This document shows positions 1,934 to 36,500 of a stretch of DNA of 42,196 nucleotides, piece after piece. Position numbers and translations under genes: made by a program. The stretch spans positions 1 through 42,196 of the forward strand of contig CAIWVW010000051.1 in NCBI GenBank assembly GCA_903916255.1, in the 5' to 3' direction. Position 1 is the stretch's first letter. Each line of letters starts with the position of its first letter. Origin of the DNA: an uncultured Bacteroidota bacterium (GTDB taxonomy: Bacteria; Bacteroidota; Bacteroidia; JABEUT01). The notes below the pieces were generated by a model, which saw only the letters and a list, made by a program, of their open reading frames with translations, was not told the DNA's origin and ran no database searches.

Positions 1934-2527
1934 ATGGAAAACACATCACCCGAACAACAAGCCCAACCCGAAACAAGAATCAAGATAGACGCGAATGTAC
2001 TTACCTATTCGGAAGTACTTGTATTTACAACCTTCTATAATGCCTATAAAATTCAGAACAACGCCTTCACCAGCAGCGCGCAAATATTAAGCCAGGTATT
2101 GTTTGAAGCCAGCGAGAAACCGATTTACATGACCGGCACTTCCACTTACTCAGGTTATCTTATTGCGGCTTTTGAAAATGGCAAAGTGGCGAAAATTAAT
2201 TTCTCCAGTTACGAAACCGAAACCAAACGCAAAAAACTGAACAGCGTATATAACAACGAATCGAAATTGGTATTTATCGAGCATATTATCGATGATATTG
2301 ATTTGGTTGCGCTAAGCAGTATAAACAAGGTGGTTTTATTTAATACAAGTCAAATAAACCCTGTAGGAAGCAGAACCACCAAGGGTTTCCATGTAGTAAA
2401 AGCCAAAGACGGAAGCTCCGTATTAAAAGTAAAAAAACTGGAACAAGTTAAATTTGCAGACCCGGAATATTACCGCAAAGGCTTGAATACAGTTGGCTAT
2501 TATTTAAAGCCCGGAGACGAGTTTTAA
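1934..2527 (+). CDS. Cytoplasmic protein resembling GyrA C-terminal beta-propeller blades
   Basis: A 197-residue protein without signal peptide or membrane segment. Two stretches resemble the blades of the gyrase A C-terminal domain: YLIAAFENGKVAKINFSSYE (about residues 73-92) and LVALSSINKVVLFNTSQINP leading into GSRTTKGFHVVKAKDG (about 124-160). GyrA blades have the form LLxxTxxGxxxRxPxSE followed by RxxxGxxxxKLxxGD. The N-terminal 20 residues are acidic and polar (PEQQAQPETR). No catalytic gyrase domain is present. A DNA- or protein-wrapping accessory role is conceivable but unproven, and the resemblance is by eye only. Its 3' end overlaps the convergent TMTC-like gene by 4 bp. Confidence 0.5.
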   Translation: MENTSPEQQAQPETRIKIDANVLTYSEVLVFTTFYNAYKIQNNAFTSSAQILSQVLFEASEKPIYMTGTSTYSGYLIAAFENGKVAKINFSSYETETKRKKLNSVYNNESKLVFIEHIIDDIDLVALSSINKVVLFNTSQINPVGSRTTKGFHVVKAKDGSSVLKVKKLEQVKFADPEYYRKGLNTVGYYLKPGDEF

Positions 2528-4401
2528 TTCGCCGTTTGCTTTGGCAGCATTGCCAAATAGTTAGCCAAATTCGGGTAATTGGGATTTATTTGGACAACCT
2601 TGGTCCATGCATTGCGTGCTGAATCATATTGATTCAGGTTGAAAAATGTTCCGCCCAAATTAATCCATAAATCAGGGTTTTCGGGGGCGCATTGAATTCC
2701 TGTTTCAAATTCATGAACGGCCTGTGGAATATTCCCCTGCTTAGCGAATTTATTACCTGTATAGGTAAATATCTGCCCCAATAAAGAATAATAGCCCGGC
2801 AAATTCGGATGCGCGGGATATATGTGCCTTACCCTATCCCAGGCCCATTTTGCCGAATCGGGATTTATTAATTGGCAATAGGCAATGCCTATGTTTAAGT
2901 ATCCGTCAATATCGGAATCATCTATTCTGATTGCCTTAAAAAGGTATTTGAGGCCCACGTGTGCAATCGAATCGGAACGGAGAGTATCCTTTGTGACTTC
3001 ACTCAGATTAATGTATTGCGCGCCCGCATTATCATTTGCTTTTACACTGTTCGGAACAGTATTTACATCTTTCATAAACAAGGTGTAATTGCTTTTCCAA
3101 TCCTTGTTCCTCCTGATAGTTTCCATTCCGCAGAAAATAACCAACACTATTAGCAAACCTGAAACAACCAAATTTCTTCTTTGCAGGGGCATGCCTTTCA
3201 CAAGAAATACGATTCCCCATGATATACTTATTGCGAACCCTAAGGAAGAATGAAAGACCAACCGTTCACCCATAGTAGTCCCAATATTGAGGATAAAATT
3301 GGAAACCATAAACAGGTTCAATAAAAAGAAAAACAGGGGAAATGCAAGAACGTTTTTCTTTTTCAGGAGGTTTAATGCTCCATAGATAATCACTCCATAT
3401 AATAGTATAGACAACCATACTACAGGGCTTGCAAAACTGTAATATGGTATTTGAGCAAAGCCATAATCATACGCCAGCGGAAAGGGAACAAACAACATCC
3501 ACAAATATTTGCCAAGAATAAAAATTTCGGTAGCTAACTTTTGTAAAGGAGTTGCAAGGAGGTATGGGTTATTCAGAATATCCAGTTCGGTATGCTGATG
3601 GGGAAAGCCTATGGAGCCAATCCTAACAATGAAATATAAAACAACTACACCAACATAGGGCAAGCTGCTTAGTATTGCTTTACGAGCACTCCGGTTGGAA
3701 TGCAGCCGGAATAAGAGCGGCATGAGGAACACCAATGTCAATGCATACTCTTTAGCAAGGAGTGCCAGAAAAAGAGAAGCCATGCCGCATATAAAGGTGG
3801 TTATTTTCTTTTTCTCCAGATAATTAATACTGAATATAAAGGTTAGCATTATGAATATGAGCGATAGAATTTCATCGGAGCTTTTAATGTTGGCAACTAC
3901 TTCTGTATGCAAGGGATGAATAGCAAACAATAGGGTTGCAATAAATGCTATGTCTTCGCCATAAGGTATGGTTCGGAGTAAATAATTCCGGAGGAAATAA
4001 AAGATGGAAAGCACGCAAAGAATATAGAGCAGAATATTTACCGCATGTCTTTTGTGAGGAGATTCACCCCACAATTGGTGTTCGACCGCAAACAAAACAA
4101 TAGACAAAGGGCGGTACCTTCCACCCGATAATTTCTGATTAGCGTTATTTTGCTTGTAATAACTGTCATATGCATCAGATGAAAGTATTTTACCAATCCC
4201 CGAAAAACCCTTCTGCACATATTCGTTACGCTGAATTACCGCTTCGTCGTCCAATGCGTATTCATTCCGAAAGGAATTGGCATAAAAGCAAAGCGTAACA
4301 ATAAACAGCAGCGCAAATTTTACTTTATAAGGGAATTTGAAAATAGACTGAACAGGCTTTTTTTGCGATGCAGGCTGAACAGGTATTTTCTTTTTAGCCA
4401 C
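2524..4401 (-). CDS. TMTC-type GT-C glycosyltransferase with TPR tail, paralogue 4 of 4
   Basis: A 625-residue integral membrane protein. A lysine/glutamine/proline-rich cytoplasmic tail (1-25) and a first TM (about 27-45) are followed by YALDD (D51, D52), the acidic loop expected of GT-C enzymes. Then come GGRYRPLS, the TMTC hallmark HPLHTEVVANIKSSDEILS and several TM helices. A DUF1736-like stretch (NNPYLLATPLQKLATE to YDYGFAQIP) follows. TPR motifs fill about 470-615 (PDLWINLGGTFFNLNQYDSA). TMTC proteins transfer mannose from a lipid-linked donor to serine/threonine on exported proteins; that activity is inferred here. It is the last gene of the run, 21 bp after its upstream paralogue. Confidence 0.8.
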   Translation of the reverse strand: MAKKKIPVQPASQKKPVQSIFKFPYKVKFALLFIVTLCFYANSFRNEYALDDEAVIQRNEYVQKGFSGIGKILSSDAYDSYYKQNNANQKLSGGRYRPLSIVLFAVEHQLWGESPHKRHAVNILLYILCVLSIFYFLRNYLLRTIPYGEDIAFIATLLFAIHPLHTEVVANIKSSDEILSLIFIMLTFIFSINYLEKKKITTFICGMASLFLALLAKEYALTLVFLMPLLFRLHSNRSARKAILSSLPYVGVVVLYFIVRIGSIGFPHQHTELDILNNPYLLATPLQKLATEIFILGKYLWMLFVPFPLAYDYGFAQIPYYSFASPVVWLSILLYGVIIYGALNLLKKKNVLAFPLFFFLLNLFMVSNFILNIGTTMGERLVFHSSLGFAISISWGIVFLVKGMPLQRRNLVVSGLLIVLVIFCGMETIRRNKDWKSNYTLFMKDVNTVPNSVKANDNAGAQYINLSEVTKDTLRSDSIAHVGLKYLFKAIRIDDSDIDGYLNIGIAYCQLINPDSAKWAWDRVRHIYPAHPNLPGYYSLLGQIFTYTGNKFAKQGNIPQAVHEFETGIQCAPENPDLWINLGGTFFNLNQYDSARNAWTKVVQINPNYPNLANYLAMLPKQTAN

Positions 4402-4422
4402 AAGTAAGAATAGTTTATAAAT

Positions 4423-6333
4423 TTATTTTCCTCGTGCGCCTTTAGGAATATTACGCAACGAATTTAATGCAGCTGTCGCATTTTTAACCGTATTGCTGTC
4501 GGGCTTCAACTCCAATGTTTTAGTCCATGCATACTGTGCATAATCGAATTGCTGTGTATTGGCATATGCAACTCCTATATTATACCATAAATCTGCATTT
4601 GTAGAATCCTCGCTAAGCCCTTTCCTGATTTCTTGTATAGCAATTAGAGGGTTATTTGCACCGACTACTTCTGCTTTATTTAGAAAAGATTTAGCCAAAA
4701 GCGGCCTATAAAACAACACTTTAGGGTGATTCGGATAAAGACCCGATTGTACAATATCCCAATAATATTTTGCCGAATCGAGATTGGAGAGATAATAATA
4801 AGCTAAGCCAACATTAATAAAAGGGTCTGGAAAACCTTTATCTAAAGCAATAGCACGCTTGCAAAGCATTACTGCCGTATCGAGCATGTTTGTTTTGCGG
4901 CTCTCATTTCCTTTTTCGGTAGATAAATTAATGTACCCGACAGACGCATCGCAATCTGCAAATTCGCTGTTGGGTACAATTTTCACATCATGCATAAATA
5001 AGGTGTAGTCGTTCTTCCAATCGGCATTGCGGCTTATAGTTTCTCCGGCGCAGGCTAAAACCAATACTACGGTTACCCCTGTAATAGCAACTTTGCGGGT
5101 TGCAAAAGGTATTTTTTTTGTCAGCCTGAATGCAAGCCAGGAAATAACAACAATAAAACCGAGGGAGGCATGGTAGTCGAACCGCTCACCATAAGAAGCA
5201 CCTACATTAATAAAGAAATTTGAAATAGGAATAAGCATGAATAAAAAGAAAAATACCGGCAATGCCATCACATCTTTTTTCATCAGCAGTTTGAAGCCCC
5301 AATAAGCTATACCCACTATAGCAAACAACGACAACCAAACAGTAATATCAGAGAAATTATGGTAAGGAATCTGGTTGTACGAATAATCGCAGGCAAGCGG
5401 GTACGGAACAACCAACTGGAATAAATATTTGCCCAGTGCATACCATTCGGTAGCAAATTTCTGAACTGGGGTAGCAAGGTAATACGGGTCCATGCGGAGT
5501 TGGTTATTGATATAATGCACCCCCGCATTGGAATGCGGAATACCCACCGATGCAAACCGTAATATGATATATACAAAGGCCGTAATAAAATAAGGAATAC
5601 TGTATGAAATGGCGCTTTTTTTATTCTCCATAGGATAGAGATAAAACAGCATTGGCAAAAGAAATATGAGCGTAATTGCATACTCTTTAGACAGCAACGA
5701 AAGAAAGAAACTGCCTACTGCGAAATACAAATATTTTTTAATGTTCTCCGTTATATACTTCAAACTGAAAATGAACGTGAGCATAATAAAAAACAGGGAA
5801 AGTATTTCATCGAAACTCTTGATGTTTGCTACTACTTCAGTATGTAACGGGTGTATGGAGAAGAGCACAGCAGAAAGTAAGGCAATATCATCACCACGGG
5901 CTATTTTCTTCAATAAAAAATTGGAGAGGAAATAATAAATGGCAAAAATGGTTCCGATAAAAAAGAGAATGTTTATTAAGTGCCTTATAAATGCGGAATC
6001 ACCAAAAAGGCTTTGCTCGACGGCGAAACAGACAATAGAAAGCGGGCGGTACCTGCCGCCTGTAAAACCCTGGCTGGCATGCATTTGTTCAAGGTAGCTG
6101 GAATAGGCATCATTCGTCATGATTTTATAAATACCGCTCACCCCTTTTTGCACATAGGTGTTGCCAAGTATTACGCCATTATCATCCAGTGCATACTGAT
6201 TAAAAAGTGTGTTGCCATAGAAAATTACTCCTATAACAGCCAGAATAATGTACTTTGTTTGTAGCGGAAAATCAAACAGCGGCTGTAATTGAGCCGGAGC
6301 AGGTGTAGCTGGTTTTATATTTTTCTTTGCCAT
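4423..6333 (-). CDS. TMTC-type GT-C glycosyltransferase with TPR tail, paralogue 3 of 4
   Basis: A 636-residue paralogue with the same order: Lys/Pro-rich N-tail, TM1, YALDD (D50, D51), GGRYRPLS, HPLHTEVVANIKSFDEILS, a DUF1736-like segment (NNQLRMDPYYLATPVQKFATE, CDYSYNQIPYHNF) and C-terminal TPRs (NADLWYNIGVAYANTQQFDYA). It differs from its siblings in the central loop (ENIKKYLYFAVG), in a longer first TPR insertion (KGNESRKTNMLDTAVMLCKR), and in SYGERFDYHASLG where the others read TMGERL(V/I)FHSSLG. A TATATTTG box at 6342-6349, inside the 30-bp gap upstream, could give it an internal promoter. Substrate unknown. Confidence 0.8.
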   Translation of the reverse strand: MAKKNIKPATPAPAQLQPLFDFPLQTKYIILAVIGVIFYGNTLFNQYALDDNGVILGNTYVQKGVSGIYKIMTNDAYSSYLEQMHASQGFTGGRYRPLSIVCFAVEQSLFGDSAFIRHLINILFFIGTIFAIYYFLSNFLLKKIARGDDIALLSAVLFSIHPLHTEVVANIKSFDEILSLFFIMLTFIFSLKYITENIKKYLYFAVGSFFLSLLSKEYAITLIFLLPMLFYLYPMENKKSAISYSIPYFITAFVYIILRFASVGIPHSNAGVHYINNQLRMDPYYLATPVQKFATEWYALGKYLFQLVVPYPLACDYSYNQIPYHNFSDITVWLSLFAIVGIAYWGFKLLMKKDVMALPVFFFLFMLIPISNFFINVGASYGERFDYHASLGFIVVISWLAFRLTKKIPFATRKVAITGVTVVLVLACAGETISRNADWKNDYTLFMHDVKIVPNSEFADCDASVGYINLSTEKGNESRKTNMLDTAVMLCKRAIALDKGFPDPFINVGLAYYYLSNLDSAKYYWDIVQSGLYPNHPKVLFYRPLLAKSFLNKAEVVGANNPLIAIQEIRKGLSEDSTNADLWYNIGVAYANTQQFDYAQYAWTKTLELKPDSNTVKNATAALNSLRNIPKGARGK

Positions 6334-6341
6334 TAAGGTTT

Positions 6342-6349
6342 CAAATATA
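6342..6349 (-). promoter_or_regulatory. Possible internal -7 box (TATATTTG) in the TMTC run
   Basis: An exact TAnnTTTG match on the minus strand in the 30-bp gap between paralogues 2 and 3. It could drive the last two genes separately. Confidence 0.35.
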
Positions 6350-6363
6350 CCATTCTTAAAATA

Positions 6364-8259
6364 TTATTGCTTTACCTGCGACAACGCCTGCAAACCTCTT
6401 TGCGCGTCGGTATTATCGGGTTTATATTGCAGGGCTTTCGTCCATGCATATTTTGCCGAATCATATTTCTGAATGGTAAAATAAGCTCCGCCGATGTTGT
6501 ACCATATATCCGAATTGGCAGAATCATAGACAAGCGCCTTTTTCATTAAATCGATACCGTCGCGGGGTTTTCCATTTTTACCGAGCGCTATTCCATCATT
6601 AAAATAAAACTGGGAAAGCAAGGCATATTTCGATTTTAAGGAAGGGTGGTTAGGATGCAGTTTCGCAACCATCTCCCAGCAGTACCTTGCGCTATCGAGC
6701 TTATCCTGGTGCAGAAATACCCCCCCTAAATTAAGATAGGCAGCTTCATATTTTGGATTCCAATGCAGGGCCCGCAAAGAATATTTATGGGCAGAATCAA
6801 GGAAAGCCTGCGCCTGTGGAATAGTATTCTCCTTTCTTTCAGAAAGGGAAAGATAGCCCCAACTTGCATTGTTGTTTGCAAGACAACTCCGTGGCACTAC
6901 ACCCGCATCATGAATAAATAATGTAGTATCGTCATACCATTGGGCGTTGCGGACGAAAGTCTCGCCTAAACAAGCCACCCCAATTATCGATAAAACACCA
7001 ATTACAACATTACGCTTTACCGCTAACTGCTGTTTGGAAAGCGCCTTAAAGAGGTAATACGCCAAAATAATAACTAAGCCCAGCGAAGAATGAAATACCA
7101 AACGCTCGCCCATAGTAGCGCCGATATCCAGCACAAAATTGGAAATCATAAATATGTTTAACAGAAAGAAAAAAACAGCAAATGAAAGGATGCTTTTCTT
7201 TAAAGCCAAGCGGATTCCCCAAACAAGTAACCCGATATAAACTACCAGTGAAAGCAATACGGTTATGTCGGTAAAATTATGGTAGGTAATCTGGTAGTAA
7301 TTATAATCGCTGGAGAGCGGATACGGAAAAAGAAGCAGCACAATATATTTACCAAGCACAAACCACTCTGTCGCTATCTTTTGAATATGCGTGGCATATA
7401 AGTATGGGTTTGCAAGAATATCGTTGGTGCTTATTACCTTGCTGTGAAACCCTACGGCATTTAAACGCAACAAAATATAAATGAGAAAAACGCCCACATA
7501 GGGAATGCTTGCCATTACTGCCTCCACAGGCTTTTTATCTTCCAGCAGATAAAAAAGAAATGGAATGAAGAATATCAACGTAACGGCATATTCTTTTGCC
7601 AATAACGCAAACAAAAATGAGCCCAACCCGAACAAAAGATGCTTTGTTTGCTTGCCCTCCAAATATTTTAAACCAAAAATGAACGTAAGCATGATGAACA
7701 GTATGGATAAAATTTCATCCAGGCTTTTAATGTTAGCTACCACCTCCGTATGCAGGGGATGAATAGCAAATAAAACAGCGGCAATAAATGCCATATCGCT
7801 GCCCCATTGTATTTTCCGCAGCAGGAATTTCTCAAGAAAATAAAATATTGAAATAACACAAGCCATATAAGCCAATATATTCACCAGGTGACGAAACCCG
7901 GGCAATAAATCGGAATCGCCGAAGATGCTTTGTTCTATTGCAAAAACAATTTCGGATAGAGGCCTGAACCGTCCACCCGATAATTGGTTGGTAGGGTCGC
8001 CTCCCATATCTTTATAATAACTGGCATAGGAATCATTCGCCATTATTTTGGGTATCCCCGACAAACCCATTTGAACATAGGAATTCCGCACAATGGTTAT
8101 GTTGTCATCCAATGCATATTTATTTCCTATGGAGTTGGCATAAAATAAAAAACAAATACAACACAAAATAATGCACTTTGTCCGGTAAGGAAATGAGAAG
8201 AGTACAGGCTTAGCCGCAGTAGCCGTTTTAACTTGTTTTTTAGGAGCAGCGGTTGCCAT
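6364..8259 (-). CDS. TMTC-type GT-C glycosyltransferase with TPR tail, paralogue 2 of 4
   Basis: A 631-residue paralogue. Visible in order are an Ala/Lys-rich N-tail, TM1, YALDD (D51, D52), GGRFRPLSEIVFAIEQ, HPLHTEVVANIKSLDEILS, about eight further hydrophobic segments and a DUF1736-like block (ANPYLYATHIQKIATEWFVL, SDYNYYQITYHNF). The conserved TMGERLVFHSSLG loop follows, then three or so TPRs (EAAYLNLGGVFLHQDKLDSA, SDIWYNIGGAYFTIQKYDSA). The active sites should face the periplasm if topology follows GT-C enzymes. It starts 4 bp after the stop of paralogue 1, implying translational coupling. Protein O-glycosylation is the family-based expectation, not something the sequence proves. Confidence 0.8.
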   Translation of the reverse strand: MATAAPKKQVKTATAAKPVLFSFPYRTKCIILCCICFLFYANSIGNKYALDDNITIVRNSYVQMGLSGIPKIMANDSYASYYKDMGGDPTNQLSGGRFRPLSEIVFAIEQSIFGDSDLLPGFRHLVNILAYMACVISIFYFLEKFLLRKIQWGSDMAFIAAVLFAIHPLHTEVVANIKSLDEILSILFIMLTFIFGLKYLEGKQTKHLLFGLGSFLFALLAKEYAVTLIFFIPFLFYLLEDKKPVEAVMASIPYVGVFLIYILLRLNAVGFHSKVISTNDILANPYLYATHIQKIATEWFVLGKYIVLLLFPYPLSSDYNYYQITYHNFTDITVLLSLVVYIGLLVWGIRLALKKSILSFAVFFFLLNIFMISNFVLDIGATMGERLVFHSSLGLVIILAYYLFKALSKQQLAVKRNVVIGVLSIIGVACLGETFVRNAQWYDDTTLFIHDAGVVPRSCLANNNASWGYLSLSERKENTIPQAQAFLDSAHKYSLRALHWNPKYEAAYLNLGGVFLHQDKLDSARYCWEMVAKLHPNHPSLKSKYALLSQFYFNDGIALGKNGKPRDGIDLMKKALVYDSANSDIWYNIGGAYFTIQKYDSAKYAWTKALQYKPDNTDAQRGLQALSQVKQ

Positions 8260-8263
8260 TGCT

Positions 8264-10189
8264 TTACTTCTTTTTTACAGGTACCAGTGCGGAAAGCCCC
8301 TTTTTTGCTTCCGCATTATTGGGGTCAATTTGCAAGGTTTTATTCCATGCATAATATGCGGAATCATATTTACCCCAGGTAAAATAAGCGCCTCCCAGGT
8401 TGTACCATAGTGAGGCATCGGTAGGGTTTATAGCAATTGCTTTATAAACCTCCCGGGTGGCAGCAGCAAAATCATGCCGTCCGCCATATTGGCCCGCCTT
8501 GGTAAGATATAACCTTCCAAGCAGGAAAAAATACCGCTGCAAATCGGGGTAATCAGGATAAGCGGCCCGCACAATTTTCCAATATATTTCGGCGCTATCC
8601 GGCATTTGAAGTTCGTAATAGGCATCGCCCAAATTGAGGTAACTGCTCACATAGGGGCTTCTTTTATGCAATATAATCGACTTCTGAAGATAGCCGATAG
8701 CTGTATCCAGTTTATGTTTCCGTGTTACACTGTCGGTGCTGTGCTGTGCCATATCTATAAACCGGGCGCCGGCATTTCCATTCAACATAATGCTGTTGGT
8801 GCCGATAGTTACATCATGCGTAAACAGGGTAATATCATTTTTCCATTGCAGGTTCCTTGCCATTGTTTCATAGCCGCAAATAACCACCAATACAGTAGTT
8901 ATTCCAAATATGAAATTCCTTTTGATTGATAAATCCCACTTTTTAACCAGCATGAATAATCCGTAAGAAAGCAATATGGCAAAGCCCAGCGAAGAATGGA
9001 AAATAAGACGTTCGCCCATGGTGGCGCCAATGTCCATAATTAAATTGGAAACCAGCGACAGGCAAAACAGGTAGAATAAAACGGCAAAGGCCAATACATT
9101 TCTTTTATAGATAAGCCACAGGCACCATATTCCGGCACCAATATACAACAGGATAGTAAACACAACGGATATATCGGTAAAGTTGCGGTAAGCAATCATG
9201 TTATATGAATAGTCGGACAGGAGCGGATAAGGAACAATCAGCATCCACAGGTATTTGCCAAGTACAAATATTTCGGTAGCAATTTTCTGCGTATGCGTAG
9301 CCAGCAGATAAGGGTTATCTAATATTTCGTTGGTAGCAACGTGGCCGTTAAAACCAACTGCCTTTCCGCGAAGAATCATATATATAAACAGCACCCCATA
9401 ATACGGTAATGTTGCAAATAATGCCTGCCCTATATTTTTATTACGCAGCAGATAAAACACAATGGGAATCAACACAAACAAGGTAATTGCATATTCCTTG
9501 GCAAGCAATGACAGGAAGAAAGATACCAGCCCGATAGCCAAATCGCGGATGTTTTTGGTGTCGATATATTTTACGCTGAAAATAAACGTAAGGCAAATGA
9601 ATAGTATAGAAAGTATTTCATCTAAACTTTTTACATTAGCTACCACCTCGGTATGCAAGGGGTGTATGGCAAAAAGGATGGTGGCAAAAAAGGCCATGTC
9701 TTCGCCATATTTTATTTTGGCAAGCAAATATTTACTCAGGAAAAAGAAAATAGCAAGTATTGCCAGTACATAGCAAATTACGCTGAAAATATGCCGTTGC
9801 ATAGCAATACTGTTACCGGTAGATTCGCCAAAAATGGCATGTTCAATGGCAAAAATAACTTCCGACAAAGGGCGGTAACGGCCACCGGAAAGCTGCTGCC
9901 CTGCATTCATTTCTTTGTAATAACTGTCGTAAGCATCGGTGCTCATTATTTTGCCAATGCCGCCAAAACCATTCTGCACGTATTGGTTTTTCTCTATTAC
10001 AATGCCATCGTCCAATGCATATTCGTTGCCAAAGGTATCGGCATACAACACGAAACTAAGCACAGCCAGTATAATAAGTTTGATTCTGAACGAAAATGGA
10101 AAAACAGGTGTAACGGGTGCTGCCTGCACTGCCTGCACTACTTTAGCCTTGGGGGTGTTGGCCTTTTGTACCGGTCTTTTGTTCGCCAT
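8264..10189 (-). CDS. TMTC-type GT-C glycosyltransferase with TPR tail, paralogue 1 of 4
   Basis: A 641-residue paralogue and the first of the four in transcription order. It has the longest N-terminal tail (about 33 residues, Lys/Ala/Val/Pro-rich), then TM1 and YALDD (D60, D61). GGRYRPLSEVIFAIEHAIFG, HPLHTEVVANVKSLDEILS, the DUF1736-like block (DNPYLLATHTQKIATE, SDYSYNMIAYRNF), TMGERLIFHSSLG and C-terminal TPRs (ASLWYNLGGAYFTWGKYDSA) follow. Its ATG lies 2 bp after the stop of the caspase-fold gene, so these two are almost certainly expressed together. The four paralogues arose by tandem duplication and have since diverged throughout. Confidence 0.8.
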   Translation of the reverse strand: MANKRPVQKANTPKAKVVQAVQAAPVTPVFPFSFRIKLIILAVLSFVLYADTFGNEYALDDGIVIEKNQYVQNGFGGIGKIMSTDAYDSYYKEMNAGQQLSGGRYRPLSEVIFAIEHAIFGESTGNSIAMQRHIFSVICYVLAILAIFFFLSKYLLAKIKYGEDMAFFATILFAIHPLHTEVVANVKSLDEILSILFICLTFIFSVKYIDTKNIRDLAIGLVSFFLSLLAKEYAITLFVLIPIVFYLLRNKNIGQALFATLPYYGVLFIYMILRGKAVGFNGHVATNEILDNPYLLATHTQKIATEIFVLGKYLWMLIVPYPLLSDYSYNMIAYRNFTDISVVFTILLYIGAGIWCLWLIYKRNVLAFAVLFYLFCLSLVSNLIMDIGATMGERLIFHSSLGFAILLSYGLFMLVKKWDLSIKRNFIFGITTVLVVICGYETMARNLQWKNDITLFTHDVTIGTNSIMLNGNAGARFIDMAQHSTDSVTRKHKLDTAIGYLQKSIILHKRSPYVSSYLNLGDAYYELQMPDSAEIYWKIVRAAYPDYPDLQRYFFLLGRLYLTKAGQYGGRHDFAAATREVYKAIAINPTDASLWYNLGGAYFTWGKYDSAYYAWNKTLQIDPNNAEAKKGLSALVPVKKK

Positions 10190-10191
10190 GC

Positions 10192-10761
10192 TTAGTACAC
10201 CAATTTAAATTGAAGCCGCTTCACCGTGCCCCGGTAATTTTTACGGATATTCTTATCGAGCATGGATATATCTTTATACTGCTGGAACATTTCAATTAAT
10301 ATCATATCGAAGGCGGAACTTTCCACAAAGTTAATTTCTGTTTCGAAACCACAAACACCCAATGCTCCGGTATGTTCAATAAATCTACGGATATTTTTAC
10401 TGTCTGTGTTCAACGTTTTGCAACTGCCGAAGTGGATAATCTTATCATGGCAACTGCCCTGAAGCATATCAGCCAATTCATCCAGCGTAACAAACTCTTT
10501 GCCCACCTGTATGCTTTCGGGTTGTCCGTGAAAAGCAAAATAACAGATGGAATAATCTTTATATTTTTTCTGCTGCCAAAGTGAAAGGTAATATTCCAGA
10601 TTTTCCCGCGTGCCGCATTGCTTGTATATGTAGTTGATTTTACAATTCTGCTGCAAAAAATTCAATGCCGCTCGTACACTCGAATTATCGCGCAAATCTT
10701 TTTGCCAATCCCCTTCTAAACAAAAAACATACTTTCTATAATATTGTGCTAAGGTGCTCAT
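10192..10761 (-). CDS. Caspase/CHAT-fold protein, DUF6642-like
   Basis: A 189-residue soluble protein. CYFAFHGQPES puts a histidine (H78) after a hydrophobic strand, and KIIHFGSCKTL puts a cysteine (C114) after the next one. This His...Cys spacing is the dyad layout of clan CD (caspase/CHAT) proteases. The opening FCLEGDWQKDLRDNSSV, the middle TRENLEYYLS and the later FIEHTGALGVCGF...ESSAFDMILIEM match what I recall of DUF6642. Whether it cleaves protein is unknown. It is the promoter-proximal gene of a five-gene run, 2 bp ahead of the first TMTC paralogue. An exact -7 box is present at 10783-10790. Confidence 0.7.
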   Translation of the reverse strand: MSTLAQYYRKYVFCLEGDWQKDLRDNSSVRAALNFLQQNCKINYIYKQCGTRENLEYYLSLWQQKKYKDYSICYFAFHGQPESIQVGKEFVTLDELADMLQGSCHDKIIHFGSCKTLNTDSKNIRRFIEHTGALGVCGFETEINFVESSAFDMILIEMFQQYKDISMLDKNIRKNYRGTVKRLQFKLVY

Positions 10762-10782: not shown

Positions 10783-10790
10783 CAAAAATA
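10783..10790 (-). promoter_or_regulatory. TATTTTTG -7 box, probable promoter of the five-gene run
   Basis: An exact TAnnTTTG match on the minus strand, 22 bp upstream of the caspase-fold gene. No other strong box is seen before the internal one at 6342-6349, so this likely drives the caspase-fold/TMTC operon. Confidence 0.5.
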
Positions 10791-18249: not shown

Positions 18250-19374
18250 ATGCCGATTAAAATCCTTTTTTTATCCGATATCAATTCGGCCCATACCCAA
18301 AAATGGGCGTTGGCGCTGGCAGATAAGGGATATCTAATCAGGATATTCAGTTTAAACAAAAACAAGTCTGATTGGTTCAAAGGAATTCCAAATATAGAAT
18401 ATACAATAGGGGAAAGAGGCTTTGATGTTGCCGGAAAAAAGGAACTTGGCAAGCTGGAATATTTAAAAGCCCTACCCGAATTAAAAAGAGTGATAAAGTC
18501 CTTTCAGCCCGATATTCTACACGCGCACTATGCTACCAGTTACGGCCTGTTAGGCGCCCTGTCGGGTTTCCATCCGTTTGTTCTTTCGGTGTGGGGAAGT
18601 GATGTGTATGAATTTCCGCAAACATCATTTCTACATAAATCATTGCTGAAAAGGAATCTGCGTAAAGCTGATTATATTTTATCTACCAGTAATATTATGG
18701 CCATAGAAACCGCGAAATACACAGACAAAAAAATTCACATCACTCCGTTCGGGGTTGATTTGAATGTGTTTAAACCGATGGCTGTAAAGCATCCGTTTAA
18801 TGAAGGTGATATTGTTATTGGCACCATTAAAGCCCTTGAATTGAAATATGGCATAAACTATCTGATAGAATCATTCGAAATACTTTGCAAAAAGCACCCT
18901 GAATTACCGCTGAAACTTTTGATAGTTGGCAAGGGCTCACAGGAAACAACACTGCGAAAACTCTGCAAGGAAAAAGGAATTGAAGACAACGTGAAATTCA
19001 CCGGGTGGATAAAGCCTGAAGAAGTTCCGCTATACCACAATATGCTCGATATATTCGTAGCGCTTTCAGTTACCGACAGCGAGAGTTTTGGGGTTGCGGT
19101 AATAGAAGCATCGGCCTGTAGCAAACCCGTAGTTGTTTCCAATGTAAGCGGGTTTGAAGAAGTAGTTGAAAATGGCATCACCGGAATAATCGTTCCAAGA
19201 AGAGACAGCGTAGCCGCGGCAAATGCAATTGAAAAGATTGTACTCGATAAAAAACTTGGAACTTCCTTTGGAGAAGCCGGTCGGAAAAGAGTTGAAAAAT
19301 TATACAATTGGACATCCAACTTGGACGACATCATGGCTATTTATAATGTAGTTTTACAATCCCAAAAGCTATGA
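18250..19374 (+). CDS. Glycosyltransferase family 4 (GT-B)
   Basis: A 374-residue GT-B enzyme. The N-domain opens MPIKILFLSDINSAHTQKWALAL and includes LHAHYATSYGLLGAL. The C-domain has VKFTGWIKPEEVPLYHNMLDIFV and the retaining-GT4 motif SDSESFGVAVIEASACSKPVV (E-x7-E donor-binding pair), then SNVSGFEEVVENGITGIIVP. It should transfer a sugar from a nucleotide donor to a growing lipid-linked glycan at the cytoplasmic membrane face. The donor is unknown. It is the first gene of the cluster and overlaps the next by 4 bp (ATGA). Confidence 0.85.
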   Translation: MPIKILFLSDINSAHTQKWALALADKGYLIRIFSLNKNKSDWFKGIPNIEYTIGERGFDVAGKKELGKLEYLKALPELKRVIKSFQPDILHAHYATSYGLLGALSGFHPFVLSVWGSDVYEFPQTSFLHKSLLKRNLRKADYILSTSNIMAIETAKYTDKKIHITPFGVDLNVFKPMAVKHPFNEGDIVIGTIKALELKYGINYLIESFEILCKKHPELPLKLLIVGKGSQETTLRKLCKEKGIEDNVKFTGWIKPEEVPLYHNMLDIFVALSVTDSESFGVAVIEASACSKPVVVSNVSGFEEVVENGITGIIVPRRDSVAAANAIEKIVLDKKLGTSFGEAGRKRVEKLYNWTSNLDDIMAIYNVVLQSQKL

Positions 19375-20594
19375 AGATTATAATACTTACGCAATATTTT
19401 CCGCCGGAAGTGGGGGCACCACAAAATCGCCTGTATGAAGTGGCCGTGCGTTTGGCAAAAATGGGCGTAGAATTGCAGGTGCTAACTGCCATGCCCAATT
19501 ACCCAAAAATGCAGATAGAATCGGCTTATAAAGGAAAATGGTATGTACATGAAAACATGTACGGGCTTGATATACACAGGGCATGGATATGGGTGGGCAA
19601 AAGTAAAAGCATCATATCGCGACTGCTCAATTATTTTTCATTTGTATTTACATCCATCTGGATTGGCTGCTTTAAATTAAACAAAGCGGATTATATATTT
19701 TGTGAATCTCCACCGCTTTTTTTGGGTATATCTGCACTTGTTTTAAAAAAAGCCAAACATGCAAAACTTATTTTTAATGTAGCGGACCTATGGCCTGAAA
19801 GCGCTGAAAAATTAGGCATTATTACCAACCGCTTTTTACTTAATGTTTCTACCCGCCTCGAAGAATATTTATACAAATCATCGGCATTAATAACAGGGCA
19901 AGCGCAAGGAATCGTTAAGAATATTAAAGGTCGGTTTCCTGATAAAACTGTTTACTGGCTGCCCAACGGGGTGGATTTATCTTTTTACGATTCAGGTAAA
20001 ATAACCAGTAACTGGAGAACAGAAAATAAATTTACCAACGATGATTTTCTTGTTTTGTATGCCGGAATTATTGGCTATGCTCAGGCATTGGAACTGGTTC
20101 TGAAAGCAGCACAGATAACAGCCGGCACGCCTACTATAAAATGGATTTTACTTGGCAGCGGGCCTGAAAAAGATAAACTGCTGCGCATGAAAGAAGATAT
20201 GAAACTGGGAAACGTTTTCTTTTATGAACCGGTCGCTAAAATGCAGATGCCCGGAATATGGAAAGCGGCGGATGCTGCGCTGGTACCGCTTCGCAGGCTC
20301 GATTTATTTAAGGGAATAATACCTTCCAAAATATTCGAGGCTATGGCTATGCAAAAGCCGCTGCTGCTTGGTGTGGAGGGAGAAGCCGAGGACCTTTTTA
20401 TAAATGAAGGTAAGGCAGGCAGGTCATTTATTCCGGAAGATGCGGCTGATTTGGCAAAGCAAGCAATGTATTTATACCAAAATAAAGCGGAAGCAGCCGC
20501 TTATGGCGTGAATGGCAACAACTATGCCCGCAGCAACTTTAACAGGGATATTATTGCCGAAAAATTTTACAACCTATTGAAAGGTGAAAAGTAA
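19371..20594 (+). CDS. Glycosyltransferase family 4, WbuB-like
   Basis: A 407-residue GT-B enzyme. ILTQYFPPEVGAPQNRLYEV and AMPNYPKMQIESAYKGKWY are characteristic of the WbuB-like (L-fucosamine/QuiNAc transferase) subgroup. FCESPPLFLGISALVL and the C-terminal IPSKIFEAMAMQKPLLLGVEGEAEDL are also seen. In O-antigen and capsule clusters such enzymes often add the second sugar. The exact donor cannot be read. It overlaps the previous gene by 4 bp and the next by 11 bp, so translation is coupled. Confidence 0.85.
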   Translation: MKIIILTQYFPPEVGAPQNRLYEVAVRLAKMGVELQVLTAMPNYPKMQIESAYKGKWYVHENMYGLDIHRAWIWVGKSKSIISRLLNYFSFVFTSIWIGCFKLNKADYIFCESPPLFLGISALVLKKAKHAKLIFNVADLWPESAEKLGIITNRFLLNVSTRLEEYLYKSSALITGQAQGIVKNIKGRFPDKTVYWLPNGVDLSFYDSGKITSNWRTENKFTNDDFLVLYAGIIGYAQALELVLKAAQITAGTPTIKWILLGSGPEKDKLLRMKEDMKLGNVFFYEPVAKMQMPGIWKAADAALVPLRRLDLFKGIIPSKIFEAMAMQKPLLLGVEGEAEDLFINEGKAGRSFIPEDAADLAKQAMYLYQNKAEAAAYGVNGNNYARSNFNRDIIAEKFYNLLKGEK

Positions 20595-21780
20595 AATTAC
20601 CAACATAAAATTCGCACTGCTTTGCCTTATAGGGTTTATGCTTACGTTTTATATTTTCTACACCCCTCTTTGCATAGTTTTATTTGCCATTGCATGGGTA
20701 GCGGAAGGCAATTTAAAAAGGAAAGCCACCACATTTCTCAAAAACAAATATGCGTTACTTTTCATATCGCTTTATTTGATTTACCTTGCCGGAATGCTTT
20801 ATACAAGCCACACACAACAGGGTTGGTTCGATATGCAAATCAAACTGAGCATAGCACTATTTCCCATCCTGCTCTCCGCCGAAGGGGAAATGGATTTCGG
20901 CAAACAAAAATGGTTTGGCTTTGCATTTATTTCCGGTGCCGTATTGCACGGATTAGGATGTTTACTATTTGCAACATGGCAATACTTTTCAAGTGGAATT
21001 GCACAATTCACCTATATGCAGTTTTCAAAATTTGTGCACCCCACCTACTACTCCATGTATATTGATTTGGCATTTATATTCATGTATTATGCAATAACAG
21101 TTAAAGCAAAAGAACTTACTAAAAAAGAAAAACTGTTCATCTATATTTCCGCACCGTTCCTGCTTTTAATACTCGTTTTGCTGAACTCTAAAATGGGACA
21201 GATAATAACAGCCTTATTGGTGCCGACACTATTATTAAAATATTTTTTATCGAAACATTCCACCTTTAAAGCCATTGCTACCATGGTTGCAGTATTGGGC
21301 TTATTGGTAATAGGCATTTCAAAAGTCTCCCGTTTTCATGCTATGGGTGATTTGCTTTCCGGAAAAAACAGGGATGTGCAATCAGTCGAATCGAATCAGG
21401 CTAGGCTTTCGGTTTGGCAAGCATCAGTGGAAGTAATTAAAAATAACCCTGTAATTGGTTCCGGAACAGGCGATGCCAAGTATGCCTTGCTGGAGGAATA
21501 TAAAAAAGAAGGCATGACGGGCGCCTATAATGAAATATTGAATTCGCACAATCAATACTTGCAAACAATAATAGCCGTAGGCATTCCCGGGATACTAATT
21601 CTATTGGCTAATTTATTTGCACCCTTATTTATGGCTATTAAACGAAAACGATTTGTCTATATGCTTTTCATTGTAATTCTTTGTTTGAATTTCCTTACTG
21701 AATCTATGCTCGACCAGCAGGCAGGAACCATGTTTTACGGGCTTTTCAATTCGCTGTTAATGTTTAATTTTGTGATATAA
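20584..21780 (+). CDS. O-antigen ligase/polymerase-like membrane protein (Wzy_C)
   Basis: A 398-residue polytopic protein starting at GTG 20584, inside the end of the preceding gene. Ten or so TM segments are visible. The Wzy_C signature is present: ARLSVWQASVEVIKNNPVIG, GSGTGDAK and, after a large periplasmic loop, NSHNQYLQTIIAVGIPGILI. Such proteins either polymerise repeat units or ligate a glycan to lipid A or protein; the sequence does not separate these. Shared Wzy_C proteins include protein O-oligosaccharyltransferases, a possibility in this phylum. Confidence 0.8.
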   Translation: MKSKITNIKFALLCLIGFMLTFYIFYTPLCIVLFAIAWVAEGNLKRKATTFLKNKYALLFISLYLIYLAGMLYTSHTQQGWFDMQIKLSIALFPILLSAEGEMDFGKQKWFGFAFISGAVLHGLGCLLFATWQYFSSGIAQFTYMQFSKFVHPTYYSMYIDLAFIFMYYAITVKAKELTKKEKLFIYISAPFLLLILVLLNSKMGQIITALLVPTLLLKYFLSKHSTFKAIATMVAVLGLLVIGISKVSRFHAMGDLLSGKNRDVQSVESNQARLSVWQASVEVIKNNPVIGSGTGDAKYALLEEYKKEGMTGAYNEILNSHNQYLQTIIAVGIPGILILLANLFAPLFMAIKRKRFVYMLFIVILCLNFLTESMLDQQAGTMFYGLFNSLLMFNFVI

Positions 21781-21788
21781 TTTCCGAT

Positions 21789-22994
21789 ATGATAAACTTC
21801 GCTCCTCCCCGCATAGATGAAAAAACCATTGAAGCAGTTGCTGAAACACTGCGCTCCGGATGGATTACCACCGGGCCTAAGACCAAATTGCTGGAGAAAA
21901 AACTATCGGAATATTGCGGAGTGCAACAAACCCTTTGCCTTAATTCGGCTACCGCCGGATTGGAACTGGCTTTGCGCTGGTTTGGAGTAGGCCCCGGAGA
22001 TGAAGTAATAGTTCCTGCCTACACGTATGCAGCCACTGCCAATGTGGTAATACATTGCGGGGCTACACCAATATTAGTTGATGTGAATAAAAATGATTTT
22101 TGCATTTCTGCAGATGCAATTGAAAAGGCTATATCTAGCAATACCAAAGTAATTATGCCGGTTGACTTTGGCGGCCTCCCCTGCAACTACGATACAATTA
22201 ATGTATTAGTCGGAAAAGTAAAAAGCAAATTCCTACCTGCAAATGAACATCAGCAAAAACTAGACCGTATAATGGTTTTGTCCGATGCAGCGCACTCATT
22301 AGGGGCTACCTATAAAGGCAAAAACATGGGACAACTTGCCGATATTTCCGTGTTCTCATTTCACGCTGTGAAGAACCTTACAACAGCGGAAGGCGGCGCA
22401 ATGCTATTCAACCTTCCTGCACCATTTGATAATGCTGCCATTTACAGGGAACTAAGCATACTTTCCCTACATGGACAGACCAAAGATGCTATGGCTAAAA
22501 TGCAAAAAGGCAATTGGAAGTATGATATTGTGGAGGCAGGTTTTAAATGCAACATGACTGATTTAGCAGCCACTATCGGGTTGATAGAACTGGAAAGGTA
22601 TAAAGACGATACGCTTCCTAAACGCAAAGAAATTGTGGAGGCTTATACTAACTTCTTTTCAAAATATGATTGGGCTGAATTACCTGTAAGCAAAGATAAA
22701 GACAGGGAATCATCCTATCACCTTTTTCCCTTGCGCATAAAAAATATAACTGAAGAACAACGCGATAAAATCATTCAGAAAATATTCGACCACGATGTAG
22801 CCGTGAATGTGCATTTCATACCTATTGCAATGATGAGTTTCTACAAGAATTTAGGATATAAAATGAGTGATTATCCGGTTACATATGATAACTTCTCGCG
22901 AGAAATATCATTGCCCGTCTATTATGATTTAACGATGGAACAGGTCTCTGTAGTTTGCAATGCTGTTAAGGAATCTGTAGAAGGAACACTGTAA
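21789..22994 (+). CDS. DegT/DnrJ/EryC1-type sugar aminotransferase
   Basis: A 401-residue PLP enzyme. NFAPPRIDEKTIEAVAETLR, GWITTGPKTKLLEKKL and LNSATAGLELALRWFGVGPG begin it; YTYAATANVVIHCGATPILV follows. The catalytic lysine is K195 in FSFHAVKNLTTAEGG. CNMTDLAATIGLIEL and HLFPLRI complete the family pattern. It makes an amino sugar from a 4-keto (or 3-keto) nucleotide sugar for the glycan. No dehydratase or acetyltransferase partner is in the cluster, so the substrate must come from elsewhere. Its stop overlaps the next start (TAATG). Confidence 0.9.
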   Translation: MINFAPPRIDEKTIEAVAETLRSGWITTGPKTKLLEKKLSEYCGVQQTLCLNSATAGLELALRWFGVGPGDEVIVPAYTYAATANVVIHCGATPILVDVNKNDFCISADAIEKAISSNTKVIMPVDFGGLPCNYDTINVLVGKVKSKFLPANEHQQKLDRIMVLSDAAHSLGATYKGKNMGQLADISVFSFHAVKNLTTAEGGAMLFNLPAPFDNAAIYRELSILSLHGQTKDAMAKMQKGNWKYDIVEAGFKCNMTDLAATIGLIELERYKDDTLPKRKEIVEAYTNFFSKYDWAELPVSKDKDRESSYHLFPLRIKNITEEQRDKIIQKIFDHDVAVNVHFIPIAMMSFYKNLGYKMSDYPVTYDNFSREISLPVYYDLTMEQVSVVCNAVKESVEGTL

Positions 22995-32022: not shown

Positions 32023-33108
32023 TTAGAACATTGAGCGGGTAGTTCCTTCGCCCGGCTTAATGGATGGGTTTTCGTGCGTATATTTCAGGGAAATTTCAAA
32101 ACCTCCTGCACCATGAGAAGCGGTTGTAAGCGCAGAGGTGTTAAAGTCATAACTTGCACCAAGTGCGTAGTTACCCCATTCGAAACCTGCCAATACAATG
32201 GCGGCATCGCCTACACGGTAATAAACACCTAAATCGACTGCGGTACCTTTATGGTTTCCTGTATATTTACTTTCAGGCTTAATAACATAACGGAGTTTTG
32301 CACCAGCATCAAATTCGGTAGCAGGCCCCTGGCTCAGGAACACAGCGCCCGGAAGAACGCGTAGGTTGGTGTTCTGTACGCCAATTTCCATATTACCATA
32401 AAAGGTATATTTCATATATAACTGGCTGCCTTGGTAACTTTGGTTAAAATAAGACATGTTTGGTTCATTGATGTGGTATATAGCAGCGCCTGCGCTGGCT
32501 TTCAATCCATCGTTAGATGACATATTGGTTTCTCCGTTTCCATAGTGCCAGGAAACACCAGCCGCGAAATCGGCATAGGTAAATGAATTACCTATAGTAC
32601 CTTCATCCGGGGCAATGCTTGAATTATATGCACCGTTAACATATTGGTTATCCCATGTTAAGGACGACAACTGAATGCTATTCTGTGCCCATCCGGCCTG
32701 AAGTCCTGCCGAAATACAATTTTTATCATCGAGGTAAACGCCGCTGGCTAAGGTAAAAGCAGCTTCCAGCTGGGTAATATGCGCATCGCCTGATTCATCC
32801 TGAAAAACAGAAAAACCCGGTGAAAGGTATCCGCTGCCCCATGTTTTAAGCATGTTATGAAACTCGAGGGTGGCAGCCATGGTAGAGTATCCGTTTCCAT
32901 TCTGAGCCACGCTGTTCCATTGGTTTTTATAATTCGCTTCAGCCATAACATTGCCTGCAAAAGCTCCGGAAAGGGAAGGATTCAGCGAAAGGGGGTTTTC
33001 AAAAAGCTGGGAAAAATGGATGTCCTGCGAAGAAGCCGTAAATCCAAAAAGAAGGCCTATTGCAGCCATTGTCAGACTTTTAGAAACACTAAGAGTTTTT
33101 GTACGCAT
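32023..33108 (-). CDS. PorP/SprF-family T9SS-associated membrane protein
   Basis: A 361-residue protein if started at 33108; the frame could start at 33162 but lacks a signal there. A signal peptide (SLTMAAIGLLFGFTASSQ) is followed directly by the family opening DIHFSQLFENPLSLNPSLSG. Repeated barrel strands and the ending ALGASYDFNTSALT...GGFEISLKYTHEN are typical. PorP/SprF proteins are outer-membrane barrels that accompany T9SS-secreted surface proteins; SprF is needed for surface delivery of SprB in Flavobacterium johnsoniae. It diverges from the giant adhesin gene, about 490 bp away. Confidence 0.9.
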   Translation of the reverse strand: MRTKTLSVSKSLTMAAIGLLFGFTASSQDIHFSQLFENPLSLNPSLSGAFAGNVMAEANYKNQWNSVAQNGNGYSTMAATLEFHNMLKTWGSGYLSPGFSVFQDESGDAHITQLEAAFTLASGVYLDDKNCISAGLQAGWAQNSIQLSSLTWDNQYVNGAYNSSIAPDEGTIGNSFTYADFAAGVSWHYGNGETNMSSNDGLKASAGAAIYHINEPNMSYFNQSYQGSQLYMKYTFYGNMEIGVQNTNLRVLPGAVFLSQGPATEFDAGAKLRYVIKPESKYTGNHKGTAVDLGVYYRVGDAAIVLAGFEWGNYALGASYDFNTSALTTASHGAGGFEISLKYTHENPSIKPGEGTTRSMF

Positions 33109-33135
33109 GTTCAATAGTGTATAATGTTTAATTTG

Positions 33136-33163
33136 CAAAAATAACAAATATTTGAAACCCAAA
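33136..33163 (-). promoter_or_regulatory. Promoter of the PorP/SprF gene (-7 and -33 boxes)
   Basis: The minus strand has TATTTTTG at 33136-33143, and TTTG at 33160-33163 with a 16-base gap, close to the Bacteroidota -33/-7 arrangement. It lies 28 bp upstream of the start at 33108 and thus rules out the start at 33162. Confidence 0.5.
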
Positions 33164-33599: not shown

Positions 33600-36500
33600 A
33601 TGAAAAAACTACTTGTATTTTTATGTGCATCCCTCCTATTGGGAAACACCCAGCATTTGAAAGCCCAGTGCTATGGCACAGTTGCATATGACGCATCGGT
33701 AAACGGAAACGGCGCCAGTACATTTACACTTACTACTGCCAATGCCAATGAAATGATACTTATTTCGCTGGATGGATACAGTTCGACCCAAACGGCTGAC
33801 CCCGGCCCGGTAACCGTTGACGGCAATAATGCAACACTTATCAATTCTGCCATGATTGGTAATTCGGGCTCTGCCGAAGTATGGGCTTACCCTGCTCCGG
33901 CTGCCGGAGCGCATACTATTGTATGCCCTGAAACCAATCTTGAGGCGCCATATTATTTAAACTTTGCCGCTGCATTTTATACAACAGGTTCCTGCACGCC
34001 ATTGTCCATTTCCAATCTTACCTCCGTTGAGAATACTGTTACTGACAGTACCGGAGGTGTTATATTCAATAGTATAACAACTACCGCACCTAATTCGATA
34101 GTGTATTGCGATGCAGAAATGAATACCGGAAAAGCTGCGGCTTATCCGGTATCATGGGCCAACGCTAATCTTCTTGCCGACCTTCATGAAGGTAACGGCC
34201 TTGATTGTTCTGATGCTTACGAATCAGAAGCCACAGCGGGTACTTATACTATTGAAGCAAAAAATTTAGCTCCATATACCGGCGGTGGCGGATTAGACCT
34301 GATATTAGTCGCCATTACACCTCCTGCCTGCGGAGTAACCGTTACAGCAGCTGTCGGAACTAACCCTTCCTGCGGAAGCAATAATGGAAGCGCAACAGCA
34401 ACAGCTACCGGAGGAACTACACCCTACACATACGCATGGACGCCTTCCGGCGGAACGAATGCAACCGCTTCGGGTTTAAGCGCCGGAACTTATACGGTAA
34501 CTGTTACCGATAATTTAGGTTGCACCGGAACAGCTTCGGTAACTCTCACGGCTACTTCTTCCATTACCTCGACCGTTACTTCTACCAATATACTTTGCAG
34601 TGGCGGAAATACCGGTACAGCAACGGTTACAGCCACAGGCGGAACAACACCTTATACCTATTTATGGAACCCCGGCGCGGAAACAACCCAAACAGCTACA
34701 GGATTAAGTATTGGCACATACACCGTAACGGTAACCGATGCCAATGGATGTAACGCTACTAATTCGGTAACCATATCCCAACCACCATTATTAAATGCAA
34801 GCACCTCATCCACTACCGCTACCTGCGGACAGAATAACGGCAGCGCTACCGTTACGGTAACCGGAGGAACTTCACCATATACCTATTTATGGAATCCCGG
34901 TGGAGGTACAACGGCAACCATCAGCAATATAAGTGCAGGAACTTACACAGTGACCGTTTTCGATTCCAACGGTTGTAATGTAAATGCGGCAGTAACAGTA
35001 GCCAATTCTTCCGGCATAAATACGTCTATTACAGCATTCACCGATGTTTTATGTAACGGCTTCAGCACAGGAAGCGCAACAGTTACAGCCACCGGAGGAA
35101 CTACACCTTATACGTATTCCTGGTCGCCTTCCGGCGGAACTAACGCCACAGCTACCGGCTTAAGTGCAGGAACATATACGGTAACTGTTACCGATGCCAA
35201 TGGATGTAACACTCCGGCTATCGCTATTATTACACAACCTAAACCTGTTCGCGACTCCATCAGCTCCATTACTTATCCATTATGCAATGGCGGAACCGGA
35301 AGTGCTACGGTTGGAGTAAAAGGCGGAGTTTCACCATATACCTATTCATGGGCTCCATCCGGAGGAACCAATGCCACAGCTACCGGATTAACTGCCGGAA
35401 CATATACCATTACAGTGCATGACAACAATGGTTGTTTAAGTACTGTTACAGTTATAATTACACAACCAACTCCAATAACCGGAACATATACCACAACCCC
35501 TACTACATGCGGAAACAATAATGGCACAATTACAGCCAACATTTCCGGAGGCACTACACCTTATACCTATTTATGGAACCCGGGCGGACAAACAAATTCA
35601 ACCGCAACAGGTTTAAGCGTTGGCACTTATACCTTAATAATTACCGACAACAATGGGTGCTCAAGAACAGGCACTGCAACTATTACGGCTTTAAGTTCAC
35701 CAACTGTTACTGTTACTTCCAGCACCAATGACAAATGCAATGGAAACAGTAACGGCAGCGCAACTGTATCCGTTAGCGGAGGCACTTCACCTTATACTTA
35801 TTCATGGGCTCCGGGCGGAAGCACCACCGCAACCGAATCCAACCTTTCAGCCGGAACTTATACCATTACGGTGCATGATTCCAGCGGATGCGTAGCAACC
35901 ACCACCGTAACTATTACCCAACCTGCTCCAATAACAGGGACCATAACCACCACCGGCGTACTTTGTAATGGTGGCAGCACAGGAACGGCTACCGTAACTG
36001 TTTCCGGAGGTAACTCACCTTATACTTACTTATGGACTCCGGGCGGACAAACAAACCAAACGGCTACCGGATTAAGTGCCGGTAGTTATTCTGTTACCAT
36101 AACCGATAAAAATGGTTGTACCGGAACAGCATCTACCATAATAACACAACCTGCAGTACTAACAGATTCCATTAGCGCAGTTACCTATCCTACCTGTAAC
36201 GGAGGAACTGGAACAGCTACCGTGGGCGTAACAGGCGGAACTACACCTTATACCTATTTATGGAACCCGGGCGGACAAACCAATACTACCGCTACTGGAT
36301 TAAGCGCCGGTACCTATACTGTCACAGTAACCGATAAAAATGGTTGTACCAAAACATCTACAGTTACAATAACACAACCTGCCCCTATTATTGTAACCAC
36401 TACTACCACCCAGGCTACCTGCGGAAACAATAACGGAGCAGCCACAGCCAATGTAAGCGGAGGCTCTACTCCTTATACTTATGTATGGTCATCACTGCCG

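Follow-up and report, generated by a model that had tools for sequence, protein, structure and literature searches.

The protein encoded at positions 10192-10761 on the reverse strand of the window, the whole 42,196-nucleotide stretch of DNA from an uncultured Bacteroidota bacterium that was analysed here, belongs to the domain family DUF6642 and, judging from predicted structures, almost certainly has the caspase fold of clan CD peptidases. Strong support for H78 and C114 as its clan CD dyad comes from the predicted structures, the profile comparisons and the conservation of both residues. The explanation we favour, with somewhat better than even confidence, is that DUF6642 is an active, stand-alone cytosolic cysteine peptidase of this clan with a general role, inherited here beside one TMTC gene that later multiplied; in this explanation, we infer catalysis, localisation, regulation and substrate alike. 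The operon that DUF6642 forms with TMTC genes is a feature at the level of lineages, and its meaning is uncertain.

What is new is a caspase-fold family that is minimal and stand-alone and includes a branch lacking the dyad, and DUF6642 now has a predicted fold together with an active site open to testing. In the literature searched, no mention of DUF6642 was found, nor, among the results listed, any work linking a caspase-like protein with TMTC.

The DUF6642 gene and its distribution

The 189-aa protein is matched full-length by Pfam model PF20347 (residues 10-189; E-value 3.3e-39; 134.9 bits against a gathering threshold of 27), and none of the NCBIfam models matches it. Neither a signal peptide nor a membrane segment is apparent by eye. 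The gene is present as a single copy within its genome, and DUF6642 occurs in approximately 13-14% of the Bacteroidia genomes sampled. Among close congeners, pN is 0.04 versus a pS of 0.61-0.81, at which synonymous sites are near saturation, a difference that reflects strong purifying selection. An overlapping open reading frame on the forward strand (9653-10195) runs antisense within the first downstream TMTC gene and was dismissed as unsupported.

Predicted fold

Two AlphaFold (AF2) models of DUF6642 were obtained, the first from 9 sequences (pLDDT 77) and the second from the same set plus a phage-contig homologue of 49% identity, 10 sequences in all (pLDDT 88, pTM 0.86). Strands and helices alternate in the models, with H78-G79 placed after the strand 72-76 and C114 after the strand 108-111, and the predicted core is of the alpha/beta/alpha type with caspase topology. 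The predicted His/Cys site, whose absence would have spoken against the original prediction, is thus placed after successive core strands. In Foldseek comparisons, all 50 of the 50 PDB matches listed for the second model are caspase-fold proteins (best E-value 2.8e-5, probability 1.00), including caspases 1, 3, 4, 6 and 8, Csx29/TPR-CHAT (8eey, 8d9f) and SAVED-CHAT (8tl0), and so are 49 of the 50 listed for the first model, the exception being an azoreductase at rank 41. The proposal of a caspase-fold protein, initially made from the sequence alone, is therefore strongly supported by the matches listed for the two models. As the TM-scores are moderate, 0.4-0.6, with an rmsd of mostly 5-7 Å, DUF6642 appears to be a distant member of the fold.

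Sequence comparison reaches less far. A PDB sequence search with the single protein as query gave no match, and a search with the DUF6642 profile gave only the large subunit of an ancestral caspase-6, at a non-significant E-value of 0.75, with the His in register. The Pfam C14 and CHAT models match nothing in this genus, where DUF6642 is thus the only protein of the caspase fold to have been detected.

The His-Cys dyad and its loss in one clade

The predicted catalytic residues, H78 in the motif AFHG (codon 10528-10530, reverse strand) and C114 in the motif HFGSC (codon 10420-10422, reverse strand), were compared with known peptidases by aligning a profile of dyad-bearing DUF6642 copies to domains of the same class, 27 of Peptidase_C14 and 26 of CHAT. 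The hhalign score against Peptidase_C14 was 34.9, while the maximum of 100 column shuffles was 19.8 and the reversed profile gave 15.1; against CHAT, the corresponding values were 25.3, 21.4 and 14.0. In both alignments, H78 pairs with the catalytic His and C114 with the catalytic Cys, which lies in DAC in C14 and in LSAC in CHAT. When 46 DUF6642 members were searched with the Pfam models at E<=10, C14 had no match, and among the CHAT and other peptidase models none was significant, including a match of Peptidase_C13 to one member (E 0.12). Because the Pfam C14 and CHAT models do not reach DUF6642 directly, membership in either family is not claimed.

Outside family f54, both residues are present in every one of the 58 copies, a number composed of 45 copies of the first set, a phage-contig copy, a Brevibacterium plasmid copy and 11 copies from a second genome draw; together with the profile alignments, this conservation upholds the clan CD dyad layout that had been read from the two motifs. 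The residue two positions before C114 is G in 39 copies, A in 7 and S in 1. In f54, both dyad residues are lost in 20 of the 20 copies examined (L044, L050, L051, L053, L055, L056, L060 and L157-L169), replaced variously by P/E/Q/K/T/A at the first position and L/A/T/S/K/E at the second, while E16, Y74, G79 and G138 stay invariant. Were H78 and C114 a catalytic pair, one would expect just these two positions to be lost together. As f54, which is probably Flavobacteriaceae, is one clade, the dyad was probably lost in a single event, and since this clade lives without it, DUF6642 has a role there for which catalysis is not needed. PF20347 scores the dyad-less f54 copies at 277-308 bits versus 68-139 bits for the dyad-bearing ones, with one outlier at 39, which suggests that the Pfam model is centred on the dyad-less clade. 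Catalysis by DUF6642 is considered likely overall.

Two of the copies outside f54 are not chromosomal. A 212-kb viral contig (L095:7995-8564; IMGVR_UViG_3300025319_000005) carries a dyad-intact DUF6642 of approximately 49-50% identity, with the gene for a terminase large subunit next to it; a search of this record, which may be a fragment, gave no TMTC. On a plasmid of the actinobacterium Brevibacterium spongiae (L156:3791-4519; NZ_CP093444.1), DUF6642 is separated by approximately 1.3 kb from a gene of the abortive-infection family, and its motifs, YLACHG...LLHLSAC, are worded as in CHAT. Among INPHARED phage genomes, no DUF6642 was found.

Promoter and TMTC-like genes of the operon

A -7 promoter box of the Bacteroidota type TAnnTTTG, TATTTTTG, was read at 10783-10790 on the reverse strand, 21 bp before the DUF6642 start. 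The box is real, and seven other congeners have it at the same position although the flanking DNA has diverged; the pattern overall is not enriched within the window. The first TMTC paralogue follows DUF6642 at 2 bp, as originally reported, and the gaps to the second, third and fourth are 4, 30 and 21 bp. In the gap before the third copy, a pattern match, TATATTTG (6342-6349, reverse strand), marks a possible internal -7 box and hence a possible second promoter. Sigma-70 and terminator scans gave no more than chance. From this arrangement, the DUF6642 and TMTC genes are likely to be on a single transcript.

The four downstream genes, all on the reverse strand, encode TMTC-like GT-C glycosyltransferases: copy 1 (8264-10189) has PMT_2, a weak TMTC_DUF1736 match and TPRs, copy 2 (6364-8259) has TPRs and is 48% identical to copy 1, copy 3 (4423-6333) has PMT_2 and TPRs, and copy 4 (2524-4401) has TPRs. 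These domain assignments come from Pfam. The GT-C 'DD' and HPxHTE-type motifs are common to all four proteins; D60-D61, in the loop that follows the first membrane segment, and, in copy 1, HPxHTE are invariant, the former across six aligned partners, and the TPRs are C-terminal, as in TMTC proteins. Between close congeners, nonsynonymous change in copy 1 is 4-5 times that of DUF6642, with an identity of 67-71% versus 94%. The number of tandem copies ranges from 1 to 5 within this genus (window 2524-10189; L076, L079), and the TMTC tree points to a multiplication of the gene within the genus. TMTC proteins paired with DUF6642 have N-tails of roughly 10-37 residues that are often Lys/Pro/Ala-rich. 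A special N-tail on paired TMTCs was considered and rejected, for unpaired TMTCs carry the same kind.

Two other loci of the window were noticed. Positions 33600-39869 encode a protein of 2089 aa that carries SprB repeats and a type IX secretion signal of the CHU_C kind, beside a PorP/SprF-type protein (32023-33162). A cluster at 18250-22994, comprising a glycosyltransferase, an O-antigen ligase (Wzy_C) and a DegT-type aminotransferase, resembles a locus for surface polysaccharide.

Gene neighbourhood and its history

A same-strand TMTC gene directly after DUF6642 was found in 10 genomes of 4 GTDB families, at a spacing of -1 to +9 bp, so that the pairing, which might have been peculiar to this genome, is recurrent. 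In this genus, the genes are adjacent in 7 of the 9 DUF6642-carrying genomes and apart in two congeners; outside it, a single genome with adjacent genes was found in each of the families f7, f19, where the TMTC gene is cut by the contig end, and f45. The last three families have in common a divergent histidine-kinase-type gene upstream of DUF6642, of 43-49% identity, indicating that the synteny was inherited. In the DUF6642 tree, all TMTC-adjacent copies fall in one 24-row clade (97/91), which also includes f11 and f61, both without TMTC adjacency. The simplest history would be a single ancestral DUF6642-TMTC pairing followed by separations.

The pairing is recurrent, but as a general function the link between a protease and membrane glycosylation is not supported, because 46 of the 56 dyad-bearing chromosomal copies have other neighbours than TMTC, and in a search at 1e-15 covering 47 genomes, 44 of them with DUF6642 (G001, G005 and G092 being without), no TMTC match was found in 13 of the 44, 8 of which have the dyad-bearing form. 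The second genome draw, with its 11 more dyad-intact copies, added no new TMTC adjacency, a weak match in L186 being unconfirmed. In f11, DUF6642 lies directly downstream of ftsQ-ftsA-ftsZ (L047:5783-10268; L188, L192, L093, L043), FtsA and FtsZ being Pfam-confirmed in L047 and the other members recognized by the gene-size pattern; in f61, its neighbours are an acylphosphatase and an enoyl-CoA hydratase (ECH), in f4 an M20 peptidase, and in f14 a tRNA synthetase-like gene. Such non-TMTC neighbours are stable within families. Separately, 29 TMTC-like matches were found in the single genome G275 (f71).

Proposed role and alternative explanations

In the favoured explanation, DUF6642 would be a single-domain cytosolic cysteine endopeptidase in which C114, activated by H78, attacks the peptide bond. 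As it has neither a pro-domain nor a sensor domain of its own, its activity would probably depend on how strongly it is expressed or on a partner protein. A general, basic role is suggested by one copy per genome kept in many Bacteroidia, with varied neighbours and under strong purifying selection. In the ancestor of the lineage, DUF6642 would have come to lie directly upstream of one TMTC-type mannosyltransferase gene, which in this genus gave rise to 1-5 fast-diverging copies; being at the head of the operon, the peptidase would be co-expressed with the TMTC genes, a single -7 promoter serving them all. As substrate, a cytosolic protein, or the cytosol-facing part of an inner-membrane protein, involved in envelope assembly would be most likely, the TMTC transferases themselves being candidates only. 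The role is probably related to the envelope, a view drawn from neighbours in some lineages only. A broader proposal, speculative and rather doubtful at present, is that DUF6642 represents an unrecognised family of minimal caspase-like proteases that regulates the envelope, in division and surface glycosylation, through cuts on the cytosolic side, with one large family turned pseudoprotease. In any case, DUF6642, having no regulatory domains and natural dyad-less relatives, offers a clean system for caspase-like roles outside defence in bacteria.

The adjacency to TMTC invites two opposite readings. One is that it is functionally meaningless, an accident of gene order descending from one ancestor, as the ftsQAZ-DUF6642 order in f11 may also be. 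Confinement to one supported 24-row clade (97/91), the histidine-kinase-type neighbour common to three families, the other lineage-specific neighbours elsewhere and the separation of the genes in two congeners are all consistent with it, yet order and near-zero spacing have survived in four families while most surroundings changed, and within the genus the promoter ahead of DUF6642 has been conserved. We regard this as quite plausible, though short of an even chance, and compatible with the favoured explanation of the protein itself. The other is a dedicated partnership, in which the peptidase would cut the basic cytosolic N-tails of the transferases, or else an inhibitor common to them, and thereby mature or switch them. 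The tight adjacency (-1 to +9 bp, four families) and the Lys/Pro/Ala-rich N-tails of paired TMTCs, cytosolic by TMTC topology (PMC7801869), agree with such a scheme; by the same topology, established in human proteins, the TPR and active-site loops should be across the membrane, so that only the N-tail and cytosolic loops would be reachable by a cytosolic DUF6642, and the N-tails of unpaired TMTCs are alike. Moreover, the wide occurrence of DUF6642 without TMTC (13 of 44 genomes at 1e-15) and beside other genes (46 of 56 dyad-bearing chromosomal copies) argues against a dedicated TMTC maturase. A TMTC-specific function of any kind is accordingly unlikely, and so is this particular partnership.

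A stress- or phage-triggered effector has also been considered, that is, a minimal caspase-like killer or regulator activated in trans by a partner, as for the CHAT of Craspase or SAVED-CHAT. The fold does match Csx29 and SAVED-CHAT, and the dyad-intact phage-contig copy beside a terminase and the plasmid copy near an abortive-infection gene would fit; nevertheless, PADLOC models gave no match to DUF6642 (E<=0.1), thus placing it in none of the anti-phage defence systems covered there, the gene is single-copy and under strong purifying selection, and its identified chromosomal neighbours are mostly housekeeping genes that are stable within families. This makes an effector improbable. The C13-family GPI transamidase acts downstream of GT-C mannosyltransferases in the GPI pathway, and DUF6642, of the same clan and with a parallel GT-C association, could by analogy use a His-Cys thioester for transamidation instead of hydrolysis. 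The single Peptidase_C13 match (E 0.12) points that way but is not significant, and a protein with no signal sequence or anchor by eye would be in the wrong compartment, so that this reading is very improbable. The favoured explanation remains a general cytosolic peptidase.

Comparison with known systems

The genes downstream of DUF6642 resemble human TMTC1-4, O-mannosyltransferases whose TPR and catalytic faces point away from the cytosol (PMC7801869), in having a GT-C membrane part, the DD after the first membrane segment and C-terminal TPRs; they differ in being bacterial and in tandem copies. A TMTC-like architecture has been noted in prokaryotes (PMC7801869).

DUF6642 itself shares with the CHAT peptidases, namely Csx29/TPR-CHAT of Craspase and SAVED-CHAT, the fold, the HG...C layout, a profile similarity above shuffles and a small residue at -2 of the Cys (G/A/S in DUF6642; S, when scored by a rough pattern, in 16 of 19 CHATs of the class), whereas it is a single 189-aa domain without TPR, SAVED or other regulatory part, its H-to-C spacing is 36-43 and PF12770 does not match it. 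With the orthocaspases and Peptidase_C14 it has in common the fold, the dyad and the strongest profile score, 34.9. In contrast, no Pfam C14 match to DUF6642 was obtained, and the Asp at -2 of the Cys, which is present in 24 of the 27 C14 domains of the class, is absent, so that DxC gives way to a small residue and a preference for Arg/Lys at P1 would not be expected. Finally, the dyad-less branch has a counterpart in the pseudo-orthocaspases, in which both dyad positions are replaced, by Tyr/Ser, and the fold is otherwise kept (PMC6426788); f54 likewise has both positions replaced and the fold kept, but it belongs to another family and its replacements are varied rather than Tyr/Ser.
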